From: Phenylobacterium sp.
Lineage (GTDB): Bacteria > Pseudomonadota > Alphaproteobacteria > Caulobacterales > Caulobacteraceae
Assembly (NCBI RefSeq): GCF_004799515.1
Contig: NZ_SSMX01000014.1
Coordinates: forward strand, 1 to 64,000
Length of the DNA: 64,000 nt
Reading direction: 5' to 3'
The translations under genes were made by a program, and so were the position numbers. This document shows positions 1,777-59,077 of the stretch, one piece after another (position 1 is the stretch's first letter; each line of letters starts with the position of its first letter). Under the pieces are notes generated by a model, which searched no databases, was not told where the DNA came from, and saw only the letters and a program-made list of their open reading frames with translations.

Positions 1777-2835
1777 TCAGGCGGCGACCACGGCGGCCAT
1801 CGGCTGGGCGGCGGTGGTGCGGTTGCGGCCGGCGTGCTTGGAGGCGTAGAGGGCCGCGTCGGCGCGTTCCACCAGGCTCATGGAGCTCTCGCCGCTGATC
1901 CGCTCGGCGTAGCCCGCCGAGACGGTGATGGTGCCCAGGTCCTCGTTGGTGGAGCGGCGCTTCAGCGAGCGGGAGGAAACCTCCTCGCGGATCTCTTCCA
2001 GCACGGCCTTCGCGGTGCGGCCATTCTCCGCCGGGAAGATGATGGCGAACTCCTCGCCGCCGTAGCGGGCGGCCAGGCGGGGCGTCGCCCCCATGCGGCC
2101 GATGACGCTGGCCACATAGCGCAGCACCTGGTCGCCGATCTGGTGGCCCCAGGCATCGTTGAAGCCCTTGAAGTGATCGATGTCGATGATCGCCAGCGTC
2201 ATGCCTTCGCCGGCGGCGTCGGCGCGGGCGCAGACGGCTTCCAGGCCTTCGTCGAAGGCCTTGCGGTTGGCGAGGTTGGTCAGGCCGTCGGTCATGGCGT
2301 CGCGGCGGACCTGGTCGAGGCTCTCGCGCAGGCGGCCGAGCTCGGCGGTGGTTTCGGCGAGCTGGCTTTCCAGGACGGCGTTCTCGCCCTGCACCTTCTT
2401 GGTGGCGGCGGTCAGGTCGACCACCACGGCCTTGACGGTCTGGGCGTCGTCCTCGTCCAGGCGGCCGGTGGCGATGGCCAGCTCGTGGCCGTATTCCTCG
2501 CTGGACCGCTGGGCGCTCTCGATGGCCTTGGTGACGGTTTGCAATTCCTTGGAGAGCACGTCGCCGGCTTCCAAGATGTCGCCGTTCAGGCGCGCTTCCG
2601 GCAGGAACTGGGCGGCCAGCGCCTCGCCGAGGGTCTCGGTGATCGGCTCGCCGGCGGCCAGCAGGCGGTCGATCTCCTGCGCCAGCGGGCTCTCGCGCTC
2701 GGCGACGTAGTGCACCCACAGGCCGAAATTGCGCGGCGTCGGCCAGACGTGGTTGGCCTCCATGACCTCGATCGCGGTGCGGGCGAGGTCATAAGACTTG
2801 GGACTGCGGAGCGCGGTCTGAACGTCCACCGACAT
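1777..2835 (-). CDS. GGDEF-domain diguanylate cyclase
   Basis: A 352-residue soluble protein. Residues 1-90 form a helical domain with the WPTPRNFGLWVHYVA segment found in a group of alphaproteobacterial cyclases (similar in layout to Caulobacter DgcB), residues ~95-180 are a predicted coiled coil, and the GGDEF domain follows with an intact GGEEF active site at 259-263 and the DIDHFKGFND substrate/metal segment near 218-227. No membrane segment is seen. The position three residues before the usual I-site Asp does not carry RxxD (the local sequence is ATPRLAARYGGEEF), so canonical product inhibition is probably absent. It makes cyclic di-GMP from two GTP. Confidence 0.9.
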   Translation of the reverse strand: MSVDVQTALRSPKSYDLARTAIEVMEANHVWPTPRNFGLWVHYVAERESPLAQEIDRLLAAGEPITETLGEALAAQFLPEARLNGDILEAGDVLSKELQTVTKAIESAQRSSEEYGHELAIATGRLDEDDAQTVKAVVVDLTAATKKVQGENAVLESQLAETTAELGRLRESLDQVRRDAMTDGLTNLANRKAFDEGLEAVCARADAAGEGMTLAIIDIDHFKGFNDAWGHQIGDQVLRYVASVIGRMGATPRLAARYGGEEFAIIFPAENGRTAKAVLEEIREEVSSRSLKRRSTNEDLGTITVSAGYAERISGESSMSLVERADAALYASKHAGRNRTTAAQPMAAVVAA

Positions 2836-50757: not shown

Positions 50758-50840
50758 GCGGCTATGGCGGAATTGGTAGACGCAACGGTTTTAGGTACCG
50801 TCGGGCAACCGTGGGGGTTCGAGTCCCTCTAGCCGCACCA
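50758..50840 (+). tRNA. tRNA-Leu (anticodon UAG)
   Basis: A class II tRNA of 83 bases including the encoded CCA. The acceptor stem pairs 50758-50764 with 50830-50836, discriminator A at 50837. The anticodon stem 50785-50789/50797-50801 encloses the loop TTTAGGT with TAG at 50792-50794, reading CUN Leu codons. The variable region (50802-50812) folds as CGG-GCAA-CCG, and the T arm (50813-50829) carries TTCGAGT. It precedes tig, with 206 bases between. Confidence 0.95.
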
Positions 50841-53116: not shown

Positions 53117-54901
53117 TTGCAACGTACCAGCGCGTGGACTCCCGACTACTTCCATAAGGTCGTCGATTGCCAGTACGCCTGTCCGGCCCACACGCCGGTG
53201 CCGGAGTACATCCGCCTGATCGCGGAGGGCCGCTACTCCGACGCCTACATGATCAACTGGCAGTCCAATGTCTTCCCGGGCGTGCTCGGGCGGACCTGCG
53301 ACCGCCCCTGTGAACCCGCCTGCCGGCGAGGACGCGTCGAGGAGGAGCCGGTCGCCATCTGCCGGCTGAAGAGGGTCGCAGCCGACAACAAGGACGACGT
53401 CTCCGCCCGCATGCCCGCGCCGGCGGCGAAGAACGGCAAGCGGGTGGCCATGGTGGGGGCCGGACCCGCCTCGCTGACGGTGGCCCGCGATCTCGCGCCC
53501 CTCGGCTACGACATCACCATCTTCGACGGCGACGCCAAGGCGGGCGGCATGATCCGCAGCCAGATCCCGCGCTTCCGCCTGCCCGAGAGCGTGATCGACG
53601 AGGAGGTGGGCTACATCACCGGCCTCGGCATGACGCTTCGCCTGGGCGAGCGGATCGGCAGCCTGAAGACGCTGTTGGCCGAGGGCTATGACGCGGTCTT
53701 CGTGGGCTCCGGCGCGCCCCGCGGCCGCGAGCTGGACCTGCCGGGCCGCCAGGCCGCGGCGGCCAACATCCACATCGGCATCGACTGGCTCTCCAGCGTC
53801 TCCTTCGGCCACGTCGACAAGATCGGCCGGCGCGTGATCGTGCTGGGCGGCGGCAACACGGCCATGGACTGCTGCCGCACCTCGCGCCGGCTGGGCGGCG
53901 AGGACGTCAAGGTGATCGTCCGCTCCGGCTACGAGGAGATGAAGGCCAGCCCCTGGGAGAAGGAAGACGCCGTCCACGAGGACATCCCGATCATCAATTT
54001 CCGGGTGCCCAAGGAATTCACCCATGCGGACGGCCGGCTGACCGGCGTGCTCTTCGAGGTCGTGGAGGCCCAGTACGACGACAAGGGCCGCCGCCGGCTC
54101 ACGCCCTCCGGCGCGCCGGACGAGCACTATGAATGCGACGACGTGCTGGTGGCCGTGGGCCAGGAGAACGCATTCCCCTGGATCGAGCGCGACCTTGGCC
54201 TGGAGTTCGACGAGTGGGACGTGCCCAAGGTCGATCCGATCACCATGCGCGGCGGCATCCCCAACGTCTTCTTCGGCGGCGACGCGGCCTTCGGGCCGAA
54301 GAACATCATCTGGGCGGTGGCCCATGGCCATGACGCGGCGGTCTCGATCCACAAGTTCTGCTGCGGAGAGGACGTCGCCGACCGCCCGCCGCCGGAGTTC
54401 TCGCTCATCAGCCAGAAGATGGGCATCCATGAGTGGAGCTACGACAACGACATCGCCAACGACCGCCGCTACCGCGTGCCGCTGCGCGACAAGGCCGTGG
54501 CGCTGAAGGACGTGAAGATGGAGGTCGAGCTCGGCTTCGACCGCGAGACCGGCTACCGCGAGGCCGAGCGCTGCCTGAACTGCGACGTCCAGACAGTGTT
54601 CGCCGACAACCTGTGCATCGAGTGCGACGCCTGCGTCGACATCTGCCCGGTGGACTGCATCACCTTCACTCAGGAACGCGATGAGCCGGACCTGCGCCAG
54701 CACCTGAAGGCGCCGGCGCTAAACCTCGACCAGCCGCTCTACGTCTCCGGCGCGCTGCCCACGGGCCGCGTCATGGTCAAGGACGAGGATGTCTGCCTGC
54801 ACTGCGGCCTCTGCGCCGAGCGCTGTCCCACCGGCGCCTGGGACATGCAGCGCTTCACCTTGGAAATGACCCATGCGGGGGGTGCATGCCAATCTCGGTG
54901 A
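53117..54901 (+). CDS. GltD-like FAD/NAD(P) oxidoreductase with 4Fe-4S domains
   Basis: A 594-residue iron-sulfur flavoprotein. The N terminus resembles the small subunit of glutamate synthase (CQYACPAHTPVP at about 18-29; CDRPCEPACRRG at about 61-72), the middle has the FAD motif GAGPASLTVARDLAPLGYDITIFD (about 115-138) and the NAD(P) motif LGGGNTAMDC (about 245-254). The end carries two clusters: CIECDACVDICPVDC and CLHCGLCAERCPTGAWDM. It likely passes electrons between the downstream 2-oxoacid oxidoreductase and NAD(P). The start is TTG; the end overlaps the alpha gene by 16 bases. Confidence 0.85.
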   Translation: MQRTSAWTPDYFHKVVDCQYACPAHTPVPEYIRLIAEGRYSDAYMINWQSNVFPGVLGRTCDRPCEPACRRGRVEEEPVAICRLKRVAADNKDDVSARMPAPAAKNGKRVAMVGAGPASLTVARDLAPLGYDITIFDGDAKAGGMIRSQIPRFRLPESVIDEEVGYITGLGMTLRLGERIGSLKTLLAEGYDAVFVGSGAPRGRELDLPGRQAAAANIHIGIDWLSSVSFGHVDKIGRRVIVLGGGNTAMDCCRTSRRLGGEDVKVIVRSGYEEMKASPWEKEDAVHEDIPIINFRVPKEFTHADGRLTGVLFEVVEAQYDDKGRRRLTPSGAPDEHYECDDVLVAVGQENAFPWIERDLGLEFDEWDVPKVDPITMRGGIPNVFFGGDAAFGPKNIIWAVAHGHDAAVSIHKFCCGEDVADRPPPEFSLISQKMGIHEWSYDNDIANDRRYRVPLRDKAVALKDVKMEVELGFDRETGYREAERCLNCDVQTVFADNLCIECDACVDICPVDCITFTQERDEPDLRQHLKAPALNLDQPLYVSGALPTGRVMVKDEDVCLHCGLCAERCPTGAWDMQRFTLEMTHAGGACQSR

Positions 54902-56736
54902 AAACGGGTTCGACGAGTTCCGGTGCGGTGACGATCAACGACTTCGTGGTCAAGTTCGCCAATGTGAACGGCTCCGGCTCGGCCAGCGCCAACGGCATGT
55001 TCGCCAAGTCGATCCTGCGCTGCGGCGTGCCGGTGGCGGCGCGCAACATCTTCCCCTCCAACATCCAGGGCCTGCCGACCTGGTTCGAGGTGCGGGTGAC
55101 CGAGGCCGGCCACCTGGGCCGCCGCGGCGGGGTCGACCTGATGGTCGCCATGAACCCGCAGACCTGGGACCGCGACGTGGCCGAGATCGAGGCCGGCGGC
55201 TTCCTGTTCTACGATTCCACCAAGCCGCTGCCGCCCAGCAAGTTCCGCGACGACGTGACCGTCATCGGCGTGCCGCTGACGGCCATGTGCAACGAACGCT
55301 ACCAGCTGCCCCGCGAGCGCCAGCTGTTCAAGAACGTGGTCTATCTCGGCGCGCTGGCGGCGCTGCTGGGCGTCGAGCCGGCGGTGGTCGAGACCATCCT
55401 CGCCGAGCAGTTCGCCGGCCGCCAGAAGCTGATCGACGCCAATATCGAGGCCCTGCACATGGGCGTGGGCTACGTCCACGAGCACCTGGCGCCGATCCGG
55501 CTGCAGGTCCGGAAGGCCGACAAGGTCGGCGACCGCATCTACGTCGAGGGCAACTCGGCCGCGGCGCTCGGCGCTGTCTATGGCGGCGCCACGGTCTGCG
55601 CTTGGTATCCGATCACGCCGTCCACCTCGCTGGCGGAGGCCTTCACCGGCTATTGCGAGGATCTGCGCACCGATCCGGACGGCAAGGCGCGCTACGCCAT
55701 CGTCCAGGCCGAGGACGAGATCGCCTCCATCGGCATCGTGGTGGGCGCGGGCTGGAACGGCGCCAGGGCCTTCACCTGCACCTCCGGGCCCGGTGTCTCG
55801 CTGATGACCGAATTCATCGGCCTCAGCTATTTCGCAGAGATCCCGGCGGTGATCTTCGACGTGCAGCGCGGCGGGCCCTCCACCGGCATGCCGACCCGCA
55901 CGCAACAGGCCGACCTGCTGGGCGCGGCCTACGCCAGCCACGGCGACACCAAGCACCCGTTGCTGCTGCCCGCCGACCCGGGCGAGTGCTTCGAGATGGG
56001 CGCGCTGGCCTTCGATCTCTCCGACCGCCTGCAGACCACGGTCTTCGTCATGCTCGACCTCGACATCGGCATGAACGAGTGGCTGACCAAGCCCTTCGCC
56101 TGGGACGACAGCCACAATCTTGACCGCGGCAAGGTGATGACGGCGGAGATGCTGGAGGCGGGCGCCGACTTCGGCCGCTACAAGGACGTCGACAGCGACG
56201 GTATCCCGTTCCGCACCTATCCCGGCGTGCACCCGTCCAAGGGCGCCTATTTCACCCGCGGCACCTCGCGCAATCCCTACGCCCGCTATTCGGAGGAGGG
56301 CGCGGTTTACGTCGACAACATGCAGCGCCTGTTGCGCAAGTTCGAGAGCGCCAAGGCCCTTATGCCGAAGCCGGTCCGCCAGGACGCCAAGCGCAAGACG
56401 ACAGACGGCGTGCTCTACTTCGGCTCGACCACGCCCTCGATGCTGGAGGCGCTGGAGATGCTGGAAGGCCACGGCCGCCACCTCGACGCCATGCGCCTGC
56501 GCGGCTTCCCGTTCAGCGACGAGGTCTACGACTTCGTGGCGGCGCACGAGCGGGTGTTCGTGGTCGAGCAGAACCGCGACGGCCAACTCAGGACCCTCCT
56601 GATGAACGAGGGCGAGATCGACCCGGCCAAGCTGGTGCCGGTGCTGCACTATGACGGGACGCCGATCACCGCGCGGTTCATCGCCGGCGAGATTGGCCAG
56701 CTCCTGGCGCTCGGCCAGATCGAAGCGGCGGAATAG
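54886..56736 (+). CDS. 2-oxoacid:acceptor oxidoreductase, fused gamma-alpha subunit
   Basis: A 616-residue subunit. Residues ~15-200 are the POR gamma domain (GSGSASANGMFAKSILRCG, RVTEAGHLGRRGGVDLMVAMN), and from ~225 the pyruvate/2-oxoacid oxidoreductase alpha domains with CAWYPITPSTSLAEAF and AEDEIASIGIVVGAGWNGARAFTCTSGPG. This is the KorA-type fusion. GGGGGG lies three bases before the ATG. With the beta subunit it decarboxylates a 2-oxoacid to its acyl-CoA; 2-oxoglutarate is likeliest but not shown. Confidence 0.9.
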   Translation: MPISVKTGSTSSGAVTINDFVVKFANVNGSGSASANGMFAKSILRCGVPVAARNIFPSNIQGLPTWFEVRVTEAGHLGRRGGVDLMVAMNPQTWDRDVAEIEAGGFLFYDSTKPLPPSKFRDDVTVIGVPLTAMCNERYQLPRERQLFKNVVYLGALAALLGVEPAVVETILAEQFAGRQKLIDANIEALHMGVGYVHEHLAPIRLQVRKADKVGDRIYVEGNSAAALGAVYGGATVCAWYPITPSTSLAEAFTGYCEDLRTDPDGKARYAIVQAEDEIASIGIVVGAGWNGARAFTCTSGPGVSLMTEFIGLSYFAEIPAVIFDVQRGGPSTGMPTRTQQADLLGAAYASHGDTKHPLLLPADPGECFEMGALAFDLSDRLQTTVFVMLDLDIGMNEWLTKPFAWDDSHNLDRGKVMTAEMLEAGADFGRYKDVDSDGIPFRTYPGVHPSKGAYFTRGTSRNPYARYSEEGAVYVDNMQRLLRKFESAKALMPKPVRQDAKRKTTDGVLYFGSTTPSMLEALEMLEGHGRHLDAMRLRGFPFSDEVYDFVAAHERVFVVEQNRDGQLRTLLMNEGEIDPAKLVPVLHYDGTPITARFIAGEIGQLLALGQIEAAE

Positions 56737-56746
56737 GGGCGGCGGC

Positions 56747-57802
56747 ATGACCTACATCCTCAAGCCCCAGCTGCACCACCCCAAGCTGGCCACCAACAAT
56801 CTGGGCTTCACGCGGCGCGACTACGAGGGCTCGGTCTCGACCCTCTGCGCCGGTTGCGGCCATGACTCGATCTCCTCGGCGATCATCCAGGCGGTGTTCG
56901 AGCTGGAGTTGCCGCCGCACCGCATCGCCAAGCTCTCCGGCATCGGCTGTTCGTCCAAGACCCCGGACTATTTCCTGGGTGCGAGCCACGGCTTCAACAC
57001 CGTCCACGGCCGCATGCCCTCCGTTCTGACCGGCGCAAATCTCGCCAACAAGGATCTGATTTACCTAGGTGTTTCCGGTGACGGCGATAGCGCCTCGATC
57101 GGTCTTGGCCAGTTCGCCCACGCGGTGCGGCGCGGCGTCAACATGCTCTATATCGTCGAGAACAACGGGGTCTACGGCCTGACCAAGGGCCAGTTCTCGG
57201 CCACCTCCGACAAGGGCTCGAAGTCCAAGAAGGGCGTGGTGAACCACGACGCCGGGATCGACCTGGTCGGCATGGCCCTGCAACTCGGCGCCACCTACGT
57301 CGGCCGCTCGTTCAGCGGCGACAAGGACCAGCTGGTCCCGCTGATCAAGGCGGGCCTGGCGCACAAGGGCGCGGCCTTCATCGACGTCATCAGCCCCTGC
57401 GTGCAGTTCAACAACCACGTCGGCTCGACCAAGAGCTTCGACTACGTGCGCGAGCACAACGAGGCGGTGAACCGGCTGGACATGATCCCGGCCCGCAGCC
57501 CCATCCACGTGGACTACGCCCCGGGCGAGACGGTGACGGTCACCCAGCACGACGGCTCGGTGCTGTCGCTGCACAAGCTGGCGGAGCTTTACGATCCGTC
57601 CGATCGCGCCCAGGCGCTCGGCTTCCTGCAGTCGCGCCAGGCCAGGGGCGAGATCGTCACCGGCCTGCTCTACGTCGACCCCGAGGCTGGCGACCTCCAT
57701 GACGCCCTCGACACCGTGGCGACCCCCCTGAACGAACTGGGCCAGGCCGATCTGGTCCCAGGCTCGGCGGCGCTCGCCAGGATCAACGCCGAGCTCAGGT
57801 AG
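56747..57802 (+). CDS. 2-oxoacid:acceptor oxidoreductase beta subunit (TPP-binding)
   Basis: A 351-residue KorB-type subunit. The cluster/TPP motif is LCAGCGHDSISSAI (about 28-41), Cys64 lies in GIGCSSKTP, and the TPP/Mg motif is GVSGDGDSASIGLGQFAHAVRRGVNMLYIVENNGVYGLTKGQ (about 103-144). The ATG at 56747, ten bases after the alpha stop, starts the family-like N terminus; the frame is open further upstream. Last gene of the operon; the riboswitch follows 66 bases later. Confidence 0.93.
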   Translation: MTYILKPQLHHPKLATNNLGFTRRDYEGSVSTLCAGCGHDSISSAIIQAVFELELPPHRIAKLSGIGCSSKTPDYFLGASHGFNTVHGRMPSVLTGANLANKDLIYLGVSGDGDSASIGLGQFAHAVRRGVNMLYIVENNGVYGLTKGQFSATSDKGSKSKKGVVNHDAGIDLVGMALQLGATYVGRSFSGDKDQLVPLIKAGLAHKGAAFIDVISPCVQFNNHVGSTKSFDYVREHNEAVNRLDMIPARSPIHVDYAPGETVTVTQHDGSVLSLHKLAELYDPSDRAQALGFLQSRQARGEIVTGLLYVDPEAGDLHDALDTVATPLNELGQADLVPGSAALARINAELR

Positions 57803-57832: not shown

Positions 57833-57861
57833 TTGACCTGACGCGGCGCGGCGCCTAAGAC
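57833..57861 (+). promoter_or_regulatory. Sigma-70-type promoter for the riboswitch/antiporter transcript
   Basis: TTGACC (57833-57838), a 17-base spacer and TAAGAC (57856-57861) form a good housekeeping promoter. The expected start, about seven bases downstream, coincides with the first base of the riboswitch stem at 57868, which supports both calls. Confidence 0.6.
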
Positions 57862-57867
57862 CCTCCC

Positions 57868-57991
57868 ACTCTTTGGGGAGTAGCCGGCCTCGCGTATCAG
57901 AGGCGCCTGCGTCAACACACTCGGCTCAAGTCTCTTAGGAGATGACGGCCGTGGCGCGGGCAGTCCGTCCGACTTGGCGAGACCATAGGGT
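57868..57991 (+). promoter_or_regulatory. yybP-ykoY family (Mn2+) riboswitch
   Basis: The conserved blocks of the yybP-ykoY aptamer appear in order: TTGGGGAGTAGCC (57873-57885), GTCAACACACTCGG (57911-57924) and TTGGCGAGACCA (57974-57985). The closing stem pairs 57868-57876 with 57983-57991 (eight pairs, one T-T mismatch), and a hairpin GCCTC/GAGGC (57887-57891/57900-57904) follows the first block. Members sense Mn2+ and switch on Mn exporters. The next gene is a cation antiporter starting 79 bases downstream; the intervening bases can form CCAGG/CCTGG pairings that could act as the expression platform. Confidence 0.9.
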
Positions 57992-58069
57992 TCGGCGTTC
58001 GCACCAGGGTTGGGCGAGGGCGCCGATCCCTTGGCTCGTGCGCCTGGCCCCCCGAGATGACCGCCTCCG

Positions 58070-59077
58070 ATGACCAGCTTGCCTGTCGTGACCGCCCTGC
58101 TGCTGGGCTCGGCCGTGGTGATCTACCTCGCCTGCGAGGTCTTCGTGAACGGCGTCGAGTGGGTCGGCCGCCGGCTCGCCGTGGGCGAGCAGGCGACGGG
58201 CTCGATCCTGGCGGCGTTCGGCACGGCCTTGCCGGAGAGCGTGGTCACCTTCGTGGCCGTGGTGTTCGGGGCGAGCGCGGCGCAGAAGCAGATCGGGGTC
58301 GGCGCGGCGCTGGGCGGGCCGTTGGTGCTCTCGACCATCGCCTACGCCACCGTGGGCGTGGTGCTGATCTGCTGCCGCGCCCGGTTGCCCAAGACCGAGG
58401 CCTGCCGCGGCGACTTCCTGGCGCTCAGCCGCGACCAGGGCTGGTTCCTGCTGATCTTCGCCGCGAAGATCGCCCTCGGCCTTGTGGCGTTCGCCGTGAA
58501 GCCCTGGCTGGGCTTCCTCTTCCTGGCGGCCTACGGCGCCTACTTCTGGAAGGAGATGCGCGGCCCCAGCGACATCGAGGCGGAAGAGCTCGAGCCGCTG
58601 AAGCTGATGCCGCGCAGGCCCGAACCGCCCACCTGGGCCGCGGTGGTCCAGACCCTGGCGGCGCTCGCGGTGATCTTCGCCGCGAGCGAGCTCTTCGTGA
58701 AGCAGCTCGGCATCCTGGGCCCCGCGCTCGGCATGAAGCCGCAGCTCCTGGCCCTGCTGCTCAGCCCCATCGCCACGGAACTGCCGGAGACGCTGAACGC
58801 CATCATCTGGGTGCGTCAGGGCAAGTATCGGCTGGCGCTGGCCAACATCTCCGGCGCCATGATGATCCAGGCCACCGTGCCCACGGCCTTCGGCCTCTTC
58901 TTCACGCCCTGGATCCTCGACCCGGCCCTGCTGGTGGGCGCCGGCGTCACGGCGCTGGCGATCGTCGCCATGTTTGTCGCCTTCCGCCGCGGCTTTATCA
59001 GCCGAGCCTTCCTGGCGTCGATGGCGGGGTTCTACGGCCTGTTCGCGGTGCTGGTGATTGCGCTGAAGCTCTTCTAG
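58070..59077 (+). CDS. Calcium/cation antiporter family protein, probable Mn2+ exporter
   Basis: A 335-residue inner-membrane protein with two homologous halves of about five helices each. The alpha repeats carry AFGTALPESVVTFVAVVFG (about 45-63) and SPIATELPETLNAIIW (about 231-246), the GxxxPE ion-site signature of the CaCA superfamily. A charged loop (about 160-190) joins the halves. The CaCA label covers Na+/Ca2+ and H+/cation exchangers; the upstream yybP-ykoY riboswitch argues that this one exports Mn2+. The ATG at 58070 follows an in-frame stop at 58058-58060, so no longer start exists. Confidence 0.88.
   Translation: MTSLPVVTALLLGSAVVIYLACEVFVNGVEWVGRRLAVGEQATGSILAAFGTALPESVVTFVAVVFGASAAQKQIGVGAALGGPLVLSTIAYATVGVVLICCRARLPKTEACRGDFLALSRDQGWFLLIFAAKIALGLVAFAVKPWLGFLFLAAYGAYFWKEMRGPSDIEAEELEPLKLMPRRPEPPTWAAVVQTLAALAVIFAASELFVKQLGILGPALGMKPQLLALLLSPIATELPETLNAIIWVRQGKYRLALANISGAMMIQATVPTAFGLFFTPWILDPALLVGAGVTALAIVAMFVAFRRGFISRAFLASMAGFYGLFAVLVIALKLF

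Follow-up and report, generated by a model that had tools for sequence, protein, structure and literature searches.

The closest described counterpart of the locus reported here is BP3410 of Bordetella pertussis, a CaCA-family Mn exporter that lies under a yybP-ykoY riboswitch and is transcribed from one promoter, upstream of that riboswitch (PMC8546581). According to the same report, Mn induces BP3410 whereas Ca does not (the Ca result being given as data not shown), induction is lost when conserved G residues of the aptamer are changed, cells without a working exporter contain about 5-fold more Mn, and the nearest solved relative of the protein is NCX_Mj (PMC8546581). A 2023 review files BP3410 and its B. 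parapertussis homologue among Mn exporters as Ca2+:cation exchangers of class YRBG, and lists MneA as a known Mn exporter among the GDT1 proteins (PMC9936198). MntP is a further known Mn exporter, and its riboswitch in Escherichia coli is described as a Mn2+-induced translational switch with Rho-dependent termination (PMC11647493). In the open-licence literature searched, BP3410 and its homologue were the only CaCA cases found under this riboswitch.

The locus analyzed here lies in a 64,000-nucleotide stretch of a Phenylobacterium genome (the whole stretch is called the window). As in BP3410, going by its published description, a match to RF00080, the Rfam model of the Mn2+ riboswitch, and a single upstream promoter precede a gene for a CaCA protein with two PF01699 domains. 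The two hosts belong to different classes of Proteobacteria, no Bordetella-named sequence was among the matches listed, and BP3410 is reported to have decayed in most B. pertussis strains, whereas the window gene is intact (PMC8546581). The review places BP3410 in class YRBG (PMC9936198), whereas the window protein falls short of the cut-off of the YrbG-like model TIGR00367. The E. coli mntP system shares the aptamer class and an exporter as target with the window locus, but its target is MntP and not a CaCA protein (PMC11647493). Since the BP3410 pair has been proven in another bacterium, the window locus is not a new kind of system; what the present analysis adds is the ion-site change across a whole subfamily, the swapping of exporters behind one riboswitch type, and an interleaved expression platform.

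We propose, with a probability of about 85%, that positions 57833-59077 form a one-gene Mn2+ detoxification unit consisting of a riboswitch and the CaCA protein that it controls, with Mn2+ export as the predicted transport activity (Table 1). In this proposal, transcription would begin just before the yybP-ykoY aptamer, high cytosolic Mn2+ would cause the aptamer to fold, and the folded aptamer would rearrange a downstream platform of two interleaved helices beside the ribosome-binding region. This change would raise expression of the CaCA protein, which would export Mn2+, with H+ or Na+ as the probable counter-ion.

TABLE 1 Features of the proposed Mn2+ detoxification unit (window positions)
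Feature	Positions	Strand	Evidence
-35 box TTGACC	57833..57838	+	Sequence; positional conservation of TTGAC
-10 box TAAGAC, 17 nt from the -35 box	57856..57861	+	Sequence; TA block in relatives
Mn2+ riboswitch aptamer (yybP-ykoY, RF00080)	57870..57989	+	RF00080 match and consensus structure of 36 leaders
Platform strand S1 (TCGGCG), pairs with S1'	57992..57997	+	Duplex-energy permutation test
Platform strand S2 (GGGTTGGGCG), pairs with S3	58007..58016	+	Duplex-energy test and covariation; interleaved with S1:S1'
Platform strand S1' (CGCCGA)	58021..58026	+	Pairs with S1
Platform strand S3, just 5' of the presumed ribosome-binding region	58041..58051	+	Pairs with S2
CaCA-superfamily cation antiporter, 335 aa, proposed Mn2+ exporter	58070..59077	+	PF01699; structure model

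Riboswitch and promoter

The search of the window with RF00080 that the earlier note had called for gave a match at 57863-58049 on the plus strand, with a borderline score of 45.8 bits, 0.8 bits above the gathering score of 45 (E = 4.4e-9). The last helix of the model is unpaired in the window alignment, and a covariance-model search found no second copy in the 4.7-Mb host genome. Scores are higher in relatives: leaders of genes whose proteins are 85, 83, and 81% identical to the window protein reach 47.9, 63.3, and 57.0 bits, respectively, and the leaders above the cut-off among the relatives scanned range from 46.5 to 81.7 bits (29 of 40). Of 38 extracted leaders, all but L040 and L049 were aligned, and the RNAalifold consensus of these 36 aptamers is a four-way junction in which P2, P3, and P4 accompany the closing stem P1 (57870-57876 with 57983-57989 in the window), and in 23 of its 32 pairs at least one sequence is altered on both sides with pairing kept. 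The same-place matches in relatives, together with these covarying pairs, argue for a genuine element whose structure is under selection. The earlier note had assigned it to the yybP-ykoY class from the presence of all conserved blocks and from a pairing closing stem. The model match and the covarying consensus bear out the class, the core blocks GGGGAGTAG (from 57875), GCGTCAACA, and GGCGAGACC were all found in the window, and P1 is part of the consensus. As for the class in general, the window aptamer is predicted to bind Mn2+.

Promoter and riboswitch occupy an intergenic stretch of 267 nt between the end of the upstream gene at 57802 and the start codon. The claim that this stretch carries its own promoter, TTGACC-N17-TAAGAC, was sound with regard to the boxes and their spacing, and 36 of 65 leaders have TTGAC in the interval 38 to 52 nt before the GGGGAGTAG core, compared with 0 to 2 of 65 in each of six control intervals of equal size further upstream. 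A TA-containing block also appears near the -10 position in the 13 leaders inspected. The output of a strict sigma-70 pattern scan did not include the window promoter, so that the promoter call rests on positional conservation. Judging from the -10 box, transcription would start within a few nucleotides of P1, the stem at which the earlier note had placed the start.

Expression platform

A terminator scan returned no intrinsic terminator in the leader, and the two terminator-like sites that it reported fall inside the gene. From the aptamer to the start codon, the leaders share a common layout of four strands, S1-S2-S1'-S3, in which S3 ends directly before the presumed ribosome-binding region. 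When the strands of each of 55 leaders were compared with strands combined from different leaders, the mean duplex energy of S1:S1' was -21.05 against -13.40 kcal/mol and that of S2:S3 was -21.31 against -17.53 kcal/mol, values reached in 0 of 2,000 permutations in either case. These leaders were what remained after L056 could not be parsed, those at least 90% alike had been removed (64 to 56), and L072 had been left out; the covariation count used all 56. In that count 92.8% of the S2:S3 pairs are standard ones, and 9 of the 10 pair positions have changed on both sides. Sliding one strand lowers the figure to 26 to 59%, and shuffling strands among leaders gives 87.8% on average and at most 89.7% in 500 trials, because both strands are G+C rich and pair well even when shuffled.

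Both helices pass the same permutation test in 20 leaders with other targets (14 GDT1 and 6 MntP), which were drawn from 30 RF00080 loci and 10 MntP/CDF loci after CaCA-linked, unparsed, and near-identical leaders had been dropped, both CDF leaders being among the unparsed. Their recurrence before GDT1 and MntP genes indicates that the platform is part of the riboswitch rather than a feature of the CaCA gene. As S1:S1' and S2:S3 are interleaved, they must either alternate or form a pseudoknot. We did not find this platform described in the open-licence literature searched, and the interleaved, covarying helices are an addition of the present analysis.

Other pairings of the four strands were discarded. 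Own S1:S2 duplexes were weaker than cross-leader ones (2,000 of 2,000 permutations in the CaCA set and 1,994 of 2,000 in the second set), and neither S1:S3 (164 of 2,000 in the CaCA set and 326 of 2,000 in the GDT1/MntP set) nor S1':S3 (1,945 and 1,186 of 2,000) was retained. S2:S1' was dropped because its 2 of 2,000 in the CaCA set became 1,905 of 2,000 in the GDT1/MntP set. Its signal in the CaCA set was also weaker, with a z of -3.0 against -16.5 and -10.1 for the two accepted helices, so that a pairing that we disbelieve can pass the permutation test at this weaker level. An anti-aptamer pairing of GGCGAGACC with the tail of S1' appears in single-sequence folds, but own duplexes are no better than mixed ones (315 of 2,000), and sequestration of the Shine-Dalgarno (SD) sequence by the 5' strand of the aptamer (CCTTTGGGG with CCCCGAAGG), attractive by eye in a few leaders, is not general.

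Folding energies give no consistent answer as to the direction of switching or the state that exposes the SD sequence. In 10 of 31 leaders the SD-to-start region costs more energy to open without the aptamer, in 17, that of the window included, it costs more with the aptamer, and in 4 the two states lie within 0.5 kcal/mol of each other; in this comparison of apo-like and aptamer-formed states, L036 was excluded for want of a core match and L077 was entered with ATA as its start codon. Taking the E. coli mntP riboswitch as a model, we regard a translational or Rho-linked ON switch as the most likely mode of action of the leader. The interleaved platform provides a concrete and testable structure for the switching of Mn2+ riboswitches that have no intrinsic terminator.

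The antiporter and its ion site

The downstream protein had been labelled a Na+/Ca2+ exchanger by motif. It scores 90.3 bits with PF01699 (cut-off, 24.9), spread over two stretches and seen as two same-frame matches in the genome scan. TIGR00367, with 62.6 bits, stays under its cut-off of 179.65. A structure model of the protein (pLDDT, 87.7) matches the folds of NCLX, NCX1, CAX, and NCX_Mj, which points to a CaCA fold.

Within this fold the ion site departs from the canonical one. Four segments, FGTALPES, GAAxGGPL, SPxATELPE, and NxSGAMMIQAT, vary little or not at all among the window protein and 25 relatives (59 to 83% identity), and the conserved segments look the same across 45 sequences. 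The ion-site motifs of the subfamily are GTALPE/GAALGGPL and ATELPE/SGAMMIQAT, the canonical GTSxPE and GNxxGSN being absent. For a residue-level comparison with NCX_Mj (3v5u and others) we used its ion-ligand positions, and mapped the first repeat from HMMER alignments, with a few residues placed by eye, and the second by internal symmetry. On this map two glutamates are retained, E54 as E56 and E213 as E240, whereas S51, S77, N81, S210, S236, and D240 correspond to A53, G83, L87, E237, A263, and Q267. The subfamily thus appears, from its aligned sequences, to have altered Na+/Ca2+ ligand positions.

The YrbG-type (TIGR00367) antiporters, which share the CaCA family and PF01699 with the window protein, served as a control. 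We used the 30 best loci over the cut-off from 190 genomes of the same class of bacteria, and both repeats could be parsed in 16 of them. In all 16, unlike in the window protein, the first repeat retains GTS/GTTxPE and GNxxGSN; the second GNxxGSN is kept in 11 of the 16.

Linkage of riboswitch and antiporter

RF00080 is found above the cut-off upstream of the antiporter gene in 19 of 20 plus 10 of 20 subfamily relatives scanned, with no match above the cut-off at the other 11; at the YrbG-type loci it was found in 0 of 30. The 40 relatives scanned (L001-L039 and L064) come from a set of 80, and the counts carry no correction for relatedness. Ten further relatives, nine of them RF00080 positive, were kept out of the count because the core motif was already known to be present when they were chosen; a Fisher value on 38 of 50, which includes them, was set aside for this reason. 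Among the matches listed, 64 of the 80 relatives have the GG[GA]GAGTAG core at most 450 nt upstream; none was found upstream for L019, L022, and L064. The subfamily, judged from these 80 relatives among the matches listed, is mostly proteobacterial, with a few members in other phyla.

Exporter swapping in the Caulobacteraceae

The riboswitch was found in 106 of 149 Caulobacteraceae genomes, at 107 places, and precedes genes of four transporter families: GDT1 at 83 places, CaCA at 13, MntP at 8, and CDF at 2, with the remaining one at a contig end, its target unseen. CDF proteins include known Mn exporters. GDT1/UPF0016 (MneA-type) genes have the same aptamer and the same interleaved platform helices as the window locus but encode a transporter family unrelated to CaCA. 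The family of the window protein occurs in 17 of the 149 genomes (E up to 1e-20) and GDT1/UPF0016 in 100, and the two rarely coincide, GDT1 being present in 1 of the 17 CaCA genomes and in 99 of the 132 others (Fisher P = 3.6e-8, without correction for relatedness). The single genome with both, a member of the host's genus (G074), has RF00080 before each gene (contig C1, 2096768-2096931 and 2657098-2657212). In 4 of the 17 genomes (G115, G076, G038, and G045; loci L124-L127), RF00080 was found neither next to the CaCA gene nor in the upstream stretch fetched. The CaCA protein occupies the same place behind the Mn2+ sensor as GDT1, MntP, and CDF proteins and therefore likely does the same job; this shared position is strong circumstantial evidence that it is a Mn exporter.

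The host assembly (99.4% complete, 56 contigs) contains one RF00080 element and one CaCA protein, and searches of the genome gave no match to MntP or GDT1. It also encodes one Nramp, one TerC, and four CDF proteins, none with RF00080, and the TerC or CDF proteins could also be Mn2+ exporters.

The earlier note had surmised that the antiporter is probably a Mn exporter and not a Na+/Ca2+ exchanger. This prediction gains from the changed ion site, from the linkage of RF00080 to the subfamily and its absence at the YrbG-type loci, from exporter swapping, from the lack of any match to MntP or GDT1 in the host, and from the BP3410 precedent.

Alternative readings

The antiporter might instead mainly export Ca2+, for Na+ or H+, with the riboswitch coupling Ca2+ export to Mn2+ status. 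The modelled fold is that of Ca2+ exchangers, and the yybP-ykoY aptamer of Streptococcus pneumoniae mgtA is reported to bind both Ca2+ and Mn2+ and to regulate Ca2+ efflux (PMC9495176). The aligned members of the subfamily, however, have other residues at the canonical Na+/Ca2+ ligand positions, families with known Mn exporters stand in the same place behind the riboswitch, and BP3410, according to its report, lowers cell Mn and is not induced by Ca (PMC8546581). Taken together, this makes mainly Ca2+ export very unlikely. A protein that exports several divalent metals (Mn2+, Co2+, Cd2+, or Ca2+), Mn2+ being one of them, is compatible with the unit that we propose and has a modest chance of being right, one that stays well short of even. 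Broad substrates are possible for CaCA and GDT1 proteins. The riboswitch class, on the other hand, serves mainly for Mn2+, and CaCA and GDT1 are nearly mutually exclusive, even if the mgtA member is reported to bind Ca2+ too (PMC9495176).

A different doubt concerns the leader, which could be an OFF switch or a decaying riboswitch that no longer responds. Its borderline RF00080 score speaks for this reading, and the folding comparison does not favor Mn-dependent exposure of the SD sequence. Against this, the core blocks and P1, like the platform, are conserved and covary across relatives, close relatives (81 to 85% protein identity) score up to 63.3 bits, repression of an exporter by its own substrate would be hard to rationalize, and the riboswitches of BP3410 and E. 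coli mntP are described as ON switches (PMC8546581, PMC11647493); we consider either form of this reading highly improbable. A responsive Mn2+ riboswitch ahead of a Mn2+ exporter remains our preferred reading of the locus, and it extends the single experimental case, BP3410, to a subfamily found mostly in Proteobacteria.

We lean, with some reserve, toward a broader view in which this CaCA subfamily, which is large and now annotated as "sodium:calcium antiporter," consists of separately evolving, dedicated Mn2+ exporters whose metal site has been rebuilt, with one more glutamate (TELPE) and the invariant SGAMMIQAT. The subfamily would be one of four interchangeable cassettes behind one type of Mn2+ riboswitch, the platform being the same in CaCA, GDT1, and MntP leaders. 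This speaks for changing the annotation of many "sodium:calcium antiporters" to Mn2+ exporter and points to residues that can be tested for Ca2+-to-Mn2+ specificity in the CaCA fold.

Other observations

Upstream of the unit, the window carries genes for 2-oxoacid:ferredoxin oxidoreductase subunits (POR_N/POR at 54886-56736 and a TPP-binding beta type at 56738-57802), preceded by a long open reading frame (53117-54901) whose product resembles, by eye, a pyridine-nucleotide/ferredoxin oxidoreductase; a tRNA gene (RF00005) lies at 50758-50837. Three Pseudomonas loci (L005, L008, and L009; about 2240-2450, minus strand) have an M-box (Mg2+) riboswitch head-to-head with the Mn2+ riboswitch and CaCA gene, and in L008 the open reading frame behind the M-box resembles MgtE by eye. 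An M-box is also nearby in a Chromobacterium locus (L075, 6400-6567). The sul1 RNA (RF03058) occurs in two CaCA loci (L034, 1242-1297, minus strand; L078, 1963-2018, plus strand), and a terC RNA (RF03067) lies close to one of the YrbG-type antiporter loci, in a Caulobacteraceae genome (L134, 3778-3858, plus strand). CaCA relatives with 52 to 70% identity are found on nine replicons listed as plasmids (H1-H9), two of which belong to Massilia putida from wolfram mine tailing, where a metal-resistance context is possible.
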